Positions 11,121 through 12,787 of a stretch of DNA of 23,301 nucleotides are shown one piece after another; the stretch's first letter is position 1, and each line of letters begins with the position of its first letter. The notes under the pieces were generated by a model that worked only from the letters and a program-made list of their open reading frames with translations, made no database searches and had not been told where the DNA came from. Source of the DNA: a virus; the IMG/VR virus record IMGVR_UViG_3300028394_000321, positions 1 to 23,301 of that record. One strand, written 5' to 3'. The translations under genes and the position numbers were made by a program.

Positions 11121-11507
11121 CTAAGACCCAAAAAACGCGGCCACAAGTGGGTCGCGTTTCACGACCCGTCTTTTCTGCCTGCGTCTGGCAGCGTCAAAGT
11201 CTTTATCGTCTGCACTCTTTTTGTCGCGATATTTCCGAATGCGATCAGCGCCTGGCACGGGACCAGGTGCAATGGCATCTTCTTCATTACCCCATGACCA
11301 CAGTGGCCGCCACTGGCCATTGTTGCTGACTCTGGTATATCCGCTGATATATACCAATTCATTGCAGTGAAGGTCAAACAGCTCTCTGGCCGCGCTACGT
11401 CTGCAACAAAAGCAAATCTTGGCCAGATCAAGGTCTGACAGATTGCCTTTCTTTTGTAGTGCTGCCTCAATGGCAGGGCCTACACGGGGTTTCAAGCCTC
11501 TGGTCAT
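11121..11507 (-). CDS. Winged-helix-like DNA-binding protein with basic tail
   Basis: A 128-aa protein ending the minus-strand operon. Residues about 22-72 read as a winged helix: LSDLDLAKICFCCRRSAARELFDLHCNELVYISGYTR, then a wing GQWRPLWSWG. Phage and prophage proteins with LxxxLxxxLxxxGLVxxxGW and xPLWxWG are common putative DNA-binding proteins. The C-terminal third is strongly basic (RKYRDKK, ARRRQKRRVVKR, about 90-118), apt for nucleic-acid contact. It starts on the stop codon of the 55-aa gene (ATGA at 11507-11504). The stops of this gene and the 701-aa virion gene abut tail to tail. A regulator of the operon or of late genes is possible; its target is unknown. Confidence 0.62.
   Translation of the reverse strand: MTRGLKPRVGPAIEAALQKKGNLSDLDLAKICFCCRRSAARELFDLHCNELVYISGYTRVSNNGQWRPLWSWGNEEDAIAPGPVPGADRIRKYRDKKSADDKDFDAARRRQKRRVVKRDPLVAAFFGS
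11130..11159 (-). terminator. Intrinsic terminator of the minus-strand operon
   Basis: AAACGCG (11133-11139) and CGCGTTT (11153-11159) form a 7-bp stem, with inner pairing CCA/TGG around a CTTG loop. Read on the minus strand the stem is followed by six T (complement of 11135-11130). It sits just before the stop codon of the winged-helix-like gene and 10 bases beyond the stop of the converging 701-aa gene. On the plus strand only three T follow, so termination there would be weaker. Confidence 0.72.
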
Positions 11508-11671
11508 GTCTGCTTATCCATTCTTACTTTCAAGCGCTCCAGCATTGTTTTGACAACGAATGCACGGGTTTTAACTTCATTGGGGATTGAGTGGCCAAAG
11601 ACTTCTGGGTGGAGTAAGTCTTTGACCAGGTCAAGGCAGGCATCAAGGGCTGGTGGTAATTCATTGTTCAC
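11504..11671 (-). CDS. 55-aa protein with GTG start, unknown function
   Basis: A small gene between the methyltransferase and the winged-helix-like gene. The start is GTG 11671, preceded by GGAG eight bases upstream. The product begins MNNELPPALDACLDLVKDLL, contains HPEVFGHSIPNEVKTRAFVV, and ends MLERLKVRMDKQT. It looks all-helical and amphipathic. The start overlaps the methyltransferase stop region, immediately following the TGA of the alternative frame, and its own stop overlaps the next ATG, so it is tightly packed in the operon. I do not recognise a family. The continuous packing is the main evidence that it is expressed. Confidence 0.62.
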   Translation of the reverse strand: MNNELPPALDACLDLVKDLLHPEVFGHSIPNEVKTRAFVVKTMLERLKVRMDKQT

Positions 11672-12421
11672 TCAAAATTCTCCATGCTGTTGCTGCCACT
11701 TCTGGAACCTGGCCATTTCCGCAGGCCTTAATTCTGTCCAATCGCGAGGCCATCCCATCATCCATTCCGTAAAACTCGGTGGCAAATGTTTTCCAGTCAT
11801 CAGTCGATAAGCACTTGTTAGCTTTGCTCCAAACTCCGTGCCAGTTTTGTGGCTTTTCCTCACAAATCTTTTGCCCGTGTAAGTTATTCCGTTTGTTTGA
11901 CCCGTCATAAAGTCTGTCGCTGTTGGAGTGGGCCACCAACCAAAATCGTTCCCGTCTATGGGGTGCGCCAACGAAGTCTGCTCCCACAATACCCCATCTC
12001 GCATCAAACCCCAGTTTGGAAAGGTCTGCAAGGACTCTGTCGAGTCCGTTATTAACGAGCATTGGGGAGTTCTCCACAAAGACAAATCTCGGTCTAACCT
12101 CGCCAATAATCCTCCCCATCTCTTTCCATAATCCACTTCTTTCTCCGTCAAGACCAGCCCCCCCCCCCATTTTGCGGTGGACAAATCTTGGCACGGAAAG
12201 CCTCCAGATACGACATCAACAATGCCTCGCCATGGCTCTCCTCTAAAACTTTGTACGTCATCCCAAACCGGGAAAGGCGGGAGAAGGCCGTCATTTTGTC
12301 TGGCGCACAATACGCTTGCTGGGTATGGCTCCCACTCGACTGCGCAGACTGTGCGCCATCCAAGGAGCTTGCCTCCGAGTATTCCTCCACCAGCGCCTGC
12401 GAAAAGAGCCAGCTCATTCAT
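11661..12421 (-). CDS. C5 cytosine DNA methyltransferase, frame broken at a G11 tract
   Basis: A Dcm-type DNA cytosine-C5 methyltransferase that would be about 253 aa if the two frames were joined. The start is ATG 12421 (AAGGA five bases upstream), overlapping the 93-aa gene; an upstream in-frame ATG at 12457 is less likely. The first frame has motif I LALFAGAGGGILGG (residues 4-17) and the catalytic motif IV GGFPCQDLS. At the run of 11 G (complement of 12158-12168) the family sequence continues in another frame: AGLDGERSGLW, motif VI-like VFVENSP, motif VIII HRRERFW, and motifs IX-X RLDRIKACGNGQVPEVAATA. The target-recognition region is short. One added G, two lost, or a -1 slip restores the enzyme. 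It probably protects phage DNA from host restriction or marks it. Confidence 0.82.
11672..12157 (-). CDS. Alternative frame overprinting the methyltransferase C-terminus
   Basis: Without a frame change at the G11 tract, translation of the methyltransferase N-terminus continues for 161 sense codons to TGA at 11672. The resulting segment is not random-looking. It has ten Trp and ordered motifs: SLWRTPQCSLI, FPNWGLMRDGVLWE, FGWWPTPTATDFMTG, LPPSFTEWMMGWPRDWTEL, and a final FQKWQQQHGEF. From memory, proteins annotated as phage DNA methyltransferases often carry WPTPTA, EW-MGWP--WT and Q-W---HG blocks like these. As sequenced, the expressed product from ATG 12421 would be about 249 aa: methyltransferase motifs I-IV fused to this segment. 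Whether it functions or is only an open shadow frame is unknown. Confidence 0.55.
   Translation of the reverse strand: MVLTEKEVDYGKRWGGLLARLDRDLSLWRTPQCSLITDSTESLQTFPNWGLMRDGVLWEQTSLAHPIDGNDFGWWPTPTATDFMTGQTNGITYTGKRFVRKSHKTGTEFGAKLTSAYRLMTGKHLPPSFTEWMMGWPRDWTELRPAEMARFQKWQQQHGEF
12158..12168. repeat. Homopolymer C11 (G11 on the coding strand)
   Basis: Eleven consecutive C on the plus strand lie inside the methyltransferase gene exactly at the frame break. The length is 2 modulo 3. Nine or twelve would give an intact enzyme frame. It is the longest G/C homopolymer I see in the window. Confidence 0.95.
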
Positions 12422-12695
12422 CACCATCCTTAAACTTCTCCAATGCAGACACTTCAATGTGGTCCACCATGGATTGCAAAATCATGTGGGCAATGTCCAC
12501 ATCAGTGCTAGCGATGTATGCGTTGTTGAGGGTCATGCACTCTTCAAGGTCAGGCTCATAAGGTGAGCCATGGGAGTCTGTCGAGCCTTTTTCTTCTGGG
12601 CTGTATTCCAGAAAGCATATAAGGTCAACGTCTTCAACTGAGCAGTCGAACTGAAACAAGCCTCTGGGGCAGTTAGGTGTTGGGCCGTATTTCAT
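12414..12695 (-). CDS. 93-aa acidic phage protein, unknown function
   Basis: Start chosen at ATG 12695, which overlaps the stop of the 31-aa membrane gene (ATGA); an in-frame ATG at 12707 would lie inside that gene. The product begins MKYGPTPNCPRGLFQFDCSV and has an acidic middle (EDVDLICFLEYSPEEKGSTD, then YEPDLEECMTLNNAYIAS). It ends with a helix TDVDIAHMILQSMVDHIEVS and acidic tail. This layout, with a DI-xxx-L helix and IE near the C-terminus, recalls a common uncharacterised phage protein, but I cannot name a family. It directly precedes and overlaps the methyltransferase gene by eight bases, whose AAGGA ribosome site lies within its last codons. Confidence 0.62.
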   Translation of the reverse strand: MKYGPTPNCPRGLFQFDCSVEDVDLICFLEYSPEEKGSTDSHGSPYEPDLEECMTLNNAYIASTDVDIAHMILQSMVDHIEVSALEKFKDGDE

Positions 12696-12787
12696 GAGGA
12701 CCACCATGCCACCAAGAGTGCAGCCAAGCCAACGCCAATGGCCAAGGCGGTCAATAAATCCATGAGGGTTTCGTTTGAGGGTTTCAT
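12692..12787 (-). CDS. 31-aa single-pass membrane peptide
   Basis: The first gene of the minus-strand operon. It starts at ATG 12787 and reads MKPSNETLMDLLTALAIGVG followed by LAALLVAWWSS. There is one hydrophobic helix (about residues 10-29) with an aromatic Trp-Trp end, preceded by a short polar N-terminus. The stop TGA overlaps the ATG of the next gene. A weak purine-rich ribosome site (GAAAG) lies upstream. Size, composition and the exact overlap argue for a real small membrane protein; its function is unknown. Confidence 0.58.
   Translation of the reverse strand: MKPSNETLMDLLTALAIGVGLAALLVAWWSS

Follow-up and report, generated by a model that had tools for sequence, protein, structure and literature searches.

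The methyltransferase locus and its two minus-strand frames

The window, that is, the whole stretch of 23,301 bases analysed, is a virus record whose genes include those for a terminase, an endolysin, a tape-measure-like protein, a single-stranded DNA-binding protein, a helicase and an exonuclease. On its minus strand lies a C5 cytosine methyltransferase locus read in two frames, designated A and B, both of which were matched by GenBank phages at identical places. The following features were located, with TRD denoting the target-recognition part of the enzyme:

12427–12431 (−): Shine-Dalgarno-like AAGGA, 5 nt upstream of the frame B ATG and 9 nt upstream of the frame A ATG (from the sequence; spacing equal in the near-identical locus L001)
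12419–12421 (−): ATG start of frame B, C5 methyltransferase, predicted catalytic subunit, MNELALFAGAGG... (from the sequence)
12415–12417 (−): start codon (ATG) of frame A, MSWLFSQALVEEY..., lying 4 nt downstream from the frame B ATG (from the sequence)
12169–12421 (−): N-terminal part of frame B, motif I (LFAGAGG) to motif IV (GGFPCQD); PF00145 positions 4–77, E 4.5e-8; phrog_363
12148–12417 (−): N-terminal extension of frame A over motifs I–IV, an 89-codon ORF, MSWLFSQALVEEYSEASSLDG... (ORF list); in relatives it runs on into the A core
12158–12168 (−): tract of 11 G following motif IV (C on the plus strand), the frame-swap site of the window (from the sequence)
11661–12157 (−): C-terminal part of frame B with motif VI (ENSP), motif VIII (HRRERFW), the TRD-region linker and motif X (GNGQVP), no motif IX; PF00145 positions 80–169, E 6.8e-14; phrog_363, E 2e-36; aligned by hhalign to canonical motifs I–VIII and X
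11672–12157 (−): frame A core, 161 codons, with SLWRTPQCSL, FPNWGLMRDG, WWPTPTATD and PPSFTEWMMGWPRDW, proposed as the target-recognition and motif IX subunit; phrog_1008, E 1e-13; no stops; purifying selection, exceeding that on frame B in the TRD region
11738–11785 (−): frame A block resembling motif IX, LPPSFTEWMMGWPRDW; from profile alignment with canonical C5 enzymes

In the ORF list, frame A stayed open for 161 codons (11672–12157, minus strand) before its stop, and frame B, in the ORF at 11661–12194 (−), carried ENSP, HRRERFW and GNGQVP; the register of A relative to B was +1. Frame by frame, the blocks of A lay over those of B in the pairs WWPTPTATD/LVAHSNSDR, FPNWGLMRDG/LSKLGFDARW, EWMMGWPRDW/GMDDGMASRL and LRPAEMARFQKWQQQHGEF/IKACGNGQVPEVAATAWRI. 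An earlier note on this DNA, made from the letters alone, had described two coherent frames in exactly this block register, and both descriptions were borne out. The same note had read motifs VI, VIII and IX-X in frame B, of which VI, VIII and X were present and IX was absent, and it had drawn the overlap as 486 bases, over which both frames were indeed open, but in relatives the overlap amounts to the whole gene (about 230–300 codons). The C5 motif set of the window copy was divided between the frames by the G tract, and the N-terminal extension of its frame A was out of frame with its A core. Two small genes beside the methyltransferase, at 11124–11507 (−) and 12417–12707 (−), had no PHROG match.

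Distribution, coding capacity and selection

Gene finders usually discard long same-strand overlaps in prokaryotes and their phages, where such overlaps are considered rare. The A core, with the consensus W[KR]T.Q, W..GMMR.G, LPTP.A.D and LNP..EWLMG.P.GW, was found in the +1 frame of C5 methyltransferases from phages of Mycobacterium, Sulfitobacter, Synechococcus, Bacteroides, Porphyromonas, Stenotrophomonas, Vibrio, Salmonella and Acinetobacter, as well as in plasmids of Nostoc, Leptospira and Bacteroides. It was further present at 70 bacterial-genome loci, in 195 phage records retrieved with one query, and in 11 of the 199 genomes of one Pseudomonas group; a Bacteroides-type query retrieved only three distant relatives. 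In PHROG, the two frames of the window matched separate families, phrog_1008 (A) and phrog_363 (B), both labelled DNA methyltransferase, yet the labels are silent on the overlap. With phrog_1008 so labelled, the statement in the earlier note that WPTPTA and QQHG endings recur in entries called DNA methyltransferase was right in substance.

Depositors have usually recorded one frame of the pair. In Pseudomonas phage VB_PaD_phPA-G (L248, 23175–23903), the annotated CDS was frame A, entered as a hypothetical protein, and the methyltransferase frame was unannotated. Both frames were annotated in Paenibacillus phage Diva, where g50 is a homologue of A that overlaps g49 in its +1 frame and carries the remark "g49 internal gene"; that annotation, however, is confined to one phage group, and no test of selection, subunit function or spread was found for it. 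In the passages retrieved from the paper on 48 Paenibacillus phages the internal gene is not discussed, and the literature searched contained no published account of dual coding in phage C5 methyltransferases. A hidden overlapping frame has been reported in the methylase of actinophage ShiLan, but it is an out-of-frame insertion of an HNH homing endonuclease and not a frame over methyltransferase motifs (PMC11855218). The suggestion of a real, undescribed dual-coded protein held as to "real", whereas "undescribed" has to be qualified by the Diva remark and by M.EcoHK31I (see below).

Overlapping frames of conserved genes are correlated in sequence, and GC-rich genes often have an open +1 frame; this favours regarding A as a mere shadow, left open by chance through the codon usage and motifs of the methyltransferase. 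The stop codon counts argued strongly against it. At all 101 loci compared (100 fetched plus the window), A lay in the +1 register of B, and across the B match, a region chosen independently of the extent of the A ORF, the +1 frame was stop-free except for one or two stops at or near the conserved end of A, as against a mean of about 12 stops in the +2 frame. At most loci A was open for about 230–300 codons, that is, over the whole gene. When codons were permuted synonymously within each gene, 183 stops were expected in the +1 register across 37 non-redundant loci and none was observed, the region scored being limited by the A ORF, which spans the gene there and is shorter only in the frame-swapped locus L031; in the +2 frame of the same loci stops exceeded expectation (558 observed, 464 expected). 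Controls behaved as predicted by chance, with 2164 stops against 2165 expected in 148 neighbouring ORFs and 46 against about 49 in four single-chain C5 methyltransferases of the same bacterial genomes (observed/expected 5/7.5, 8/10.3, 15/15.6 and 18/15.8). A search of these four enzymes for A found it absent, and the five dual-coded methyltransferases scored beside them had no stops and A-core scores of 295–350 bits. A compositional bias keeping the +1 frame open was therefore rejected on the permutation and control-gene counts. In diverged methyltransferases selected by their B frame, and hence free of the A-ORF limit, 15 stops were found between motifs IV and X where 135 were expected. Twelve of the 15 were in L282, the sole scored diverged methyltransferase with a decayed A frame (8.6 expected).

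The A proteins themselves were conserved, with a mean column identity of 52% and invariant W, G, P and C positions in an alignment of 32 of them (A1). The window and L001 differed at 2 of 486 sites, both of them synonymous wobble positions of A, which is again contrary to a shadow.

Single-nucleotide differences were then sorted, in a manner similar to OLGenie, by their effect on B (first letter) and A (second letter), S denoting synonymous and N nonsynonymous, so that SN/NS is the ratio of changes silent in B and altering A to those silent in A and altering B. Over 30 independent pairs NN/NS was 0.41 (0.34–0.47), compared with 0.71–0.85 in control genes, indicating that A is under purifying selection. 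SN/NS in the same pairs was 4.98 in motifs I–IV, 2.61 in motifs IV–VIII, 0.41 (0.26–0.59) in the TRD region and 1.48 towards motif X. The most variable site of the TRD region was the first codon position of B, which is the wobble position of A, and changes keeping A while altering B exceeded the reverse; in this region A is the main coding frame and the sequence of B is near to a shadow. Constraint thus moves from B over motifs I–VIII to A in the TRD region, both frames being constrained towards motif X, and constraint on A peaks where that on B is lowest. A very diverged prophage lineage, the relatives of Escherichia phage ESSI2_ev129, in which A begins only past motif IV, gave SN/NS values of 7.1 (before A begins), 1.84, 0.36 and 2.04, and is an independent repeat of the hand-over with an internal control.

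The earlier note had named stops at the chance rate in the alternative frame, with third-position constraint only in the methyltransferase frame, as the mark of a shadow; instead, A was stop-free, changes silent in B and altering A were suppressed, and the TRD region favoured A. The absence of stops where 183 were expected, together with SN/NS below 1 in the TRD region, refutes the shadow reading, which we regard as highly improbable, and from these sequence comparisons both frames are almost certainly coding.

Proposed division of the methyltransferase between the frames

In relatives, the start of A lies 4 nt after the usual methyltransferase ATG (ATGAATGAGC), and the B start position holds ATG, GTG or TTG in 174 of 201 of them. 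The ATG of A is embedded in the AATGAG of Asn-Glu codons of B, and the first three residues of A, M1, S2 and W3, were invariant in alignment A1. At most loci a single Shine-Dalgarno sequence could serve both starts; among 19 loci with a B start farther upstream, 16 had a Shine-Dalgarno sequence for A within the first codons of B. In gene 58 of the model phage N15 (L414, record positions 44546–45541), the open frame of A extends over 242 codons (44739–45464), and its ATG at 44823 is preceded eight bases upstream by GGGAGG, a strong Shine-Dalgarno sequence, within the loop codons after motif IV. These features would allow separate initiation of A in the +1 register.

Frame B of the relatives contained motifs I, IV (PCQ), VI (ENV/ENS), VIII (R.R) and X (GN) in order in one ORF. 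By hhalign, the B profile aligned to motifs I–VIII of canonical C5 enzymes (E 1.7e-20) and then, with the TRD and motif IX left unaligned, to motif X. Consistently, the match of B to M.HhaI was confined to residues 16–181 of 327, and the PF00145 match of dual-coded loci ran from position 4 to about 170–200 of 324, while canonical enzymes reach 320. Frame B thus lacked the combination of TRD and motif IX on one chain by which a single-chain enzyme is recognised. In four bacterial genomes (L101, L103, L106 and L126), a stop was found inside B and A was intact at full length, a pattern that would suit either recent decay or a role of A independent of B.

When the A profile was compared with canonical C5 enzymes, the alignment placed the block LNPxWVEWLMGWP on motif IX, with LNPTWVEWLMGWP on RLTPRECARLMGFE; the match was weak by itself (E 0.14), and a comparable score at this place was reached in 1 of 150 column shuffles. 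Two rearranged loci link A to methyltransferase parts. In a Spirochaetia contig (L164, 4001–5167, plus strand), a 389-codon A ORF comprised the A core followed by motif X in the same frame, and B terminated past motif VIII, giving a division like that of M.AquI. In an IncC plasmid of Vibrio cholerae (L372, 2704–3948, plus strand), B motifs I–VIII and X were followed, on a single chain and with no overlapping frame, by an A-like C-terminal segment, on which the A profile score was reached by none of 1811 scored shuffles; as a query in phages this segment gave no match. AlphaFold models of A were poor, with a mean pLDDT of 49 and 58.8 and a pTM of 0.32 and 0.27 for 32 and 136 sequences, respectively. 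Foldseek and VIA searches with these models matched no known fold, and a sequence search of the PDB with A found nothing.

The lack of TRD and motif IX in B, the motif IX-like block in A and the rearrangements in L164 and L372 together suggest that A is most likely the subunit carrying the TRD and motif IX, and the pattern of constraint by region places the TRD in frame A. We accordingly consider A to be the probable specificity subunit of a two-chain C5 methyltransferase.

The small subunit of M.EcoHK31I is encoded in an alternative frame within the gene of its large subunit. In this enzyme, specific for YGGCCR, the large subunit possesses motifs I–VIII and X and motif IX is on the small subunit, the TRD being reported in the large subunit (PMC3404938). 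Frame B resembles that large subunit in having motifs I–VIII and X and no motif IX; the present family differs in that the TRD appears, from the distribution of constraint, to lie in frame A, that A covers the whole gene in the clade of the window, and that the loci are those of phages, prophages and plasmids. M.AquI (CYCGRG) is likewise a split enzyme, and L164 is divided similarly (I–VIII and TRD-IX-X), but the split of M.AquI follows the order of the motifs, whereas here both chains are encoded on the same DNA in two frames. The frame-split form would be a new and very widespread version of a known kind of two-polypeptide enzyme rather than a new type of system.

On this evidence, the gene is likely to encode a C5 methyltransferase of the M.EcoHK31I kind, split over two frames into two subunits, a form that would be widespread among phages and prophages, N15 being one of them. 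Frame B would supply the catalytic subunit (motifs I–VIII and X), and A, initiated separately in the +1 register of the shared mRNA, a second subunit with the TRD and motif IX; the two would assemble into one complete enzyme, and A would decide which DNA site is methylated. Such a gene probably originated when the TRD and motif IX of a single-chain enzyme dropped into the +1 frame, after which A would have gained an upstream start by overprinting motifs IV–VIII and, in the clade of the window, the whole gene. Counting against the two-subunit reading are the poor AlphaFold models of A, its weak motif IX match, the four genomes with a stopped B, and the location of the TRD in M.EcoHK31I.

Some of these points would equally be expected if A were a separate phage protein, acting for example in anti-restriction or regulation, whose gene overlaps the methyltransferase without encoding a subunit of it: A remains open in the four genomes in which B is internally stopped, and no relative of known structure was detectable for it. 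Such a protein would hardly account for the near-constant presence of A at a C5 methyltransferase locus, for the parts absent from B being those that A appears to supply, for the fusions that link A to methyltransferase parts, or for constraint on A being highest where that on B is lowest, and we hold this alternative to be rather unlikely.

The overlap is conserved across mycobacteriophages, Bacteroides phages, cyanobacterial plasmids and enterobacterial prophages and provides a measurable hand-over of selection along one gene. If the two-subunit reading is correct, many phage cytosine methyltransferases, usually annotated as one protein, are probably described by only half the enzyme. Cloning of the annotated frame alone should then yield an inactive or aspecific enzyme, and predictions of prophage methylomes from the annotated protein alone would overlook the probable determinant of target choice.

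The poly-G tract and the frame swap of the window

Of 198 distinct loci, 31 had a tract of 8–15 G after motif IV, at 245–252 nt after the A/B start, among them the window, L001, L004, L031, L097, L147, L184 and L212; outside this place, these loci contained 12 such runs (at least eight G) in 1.1 Mb. This enrichment at the junction, and the continuation of the N-terminus of B into the A core in the window, L097 and L184, are what would be expected if the true product were a single polypeptide, made by programmed frameshifting or slippage from the N-terminal part of B into the A core, with the start of A unused. The tract is absent from most loci, however; the conserved motifs VI–VIII and X of B would be lost from such a product, and the ATG of A, which does not vary in the alignment, is often preceded by a separate Shine-Dalgarno sequence, so that this explanation appears very improbable. 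Ribosomal or transcriptional slippage as a general route to A was likewise rejected, as most loci have no G tract.

Although the junction of the window itself could be a homopolymer error (11 G, compared with 12 G in L001), the notion that the pair is one gene broken by sequencing errors in annotation or assembly is already refuted for the family and has virtually no chance of being correct, both frames being open at full length in nearly all loci, including N15 and many isolate genomes. The widespread frameshift artefact that the earlier note had offered as an alternative thus shrinks to small changes in the length of a single poly-G tract, seen in the window and a few other records.

The near-identical L001 keeps both frames intact. 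With 11 G instead of 12, motifs I–IV of the window are joined to the A core, and the N-terminus of A and the C-terminus of B are each severed; as written, this copy should not encode a working enzyme. The 11-G tract may represent either slippage that switches the enzyme or a sequencing error: tract length differed between loci and tracts were enriched at the junction, and error could also produce such a difference. We tentatively propose, as a possibility that we consider less probable than its opposite, that a large and ancient share of the "orphan" C5 methyltransferases of phages is frame-split with the specificity subunit hidden in the +1 frame, and that in some lineages the poly-G junction serves as a slippage switch by which the enzyme is turned off or its halves are traded. 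Five records were out of frame (the window, L031, L097, L147 and L184), and most tract-bearing relatives were in frame.
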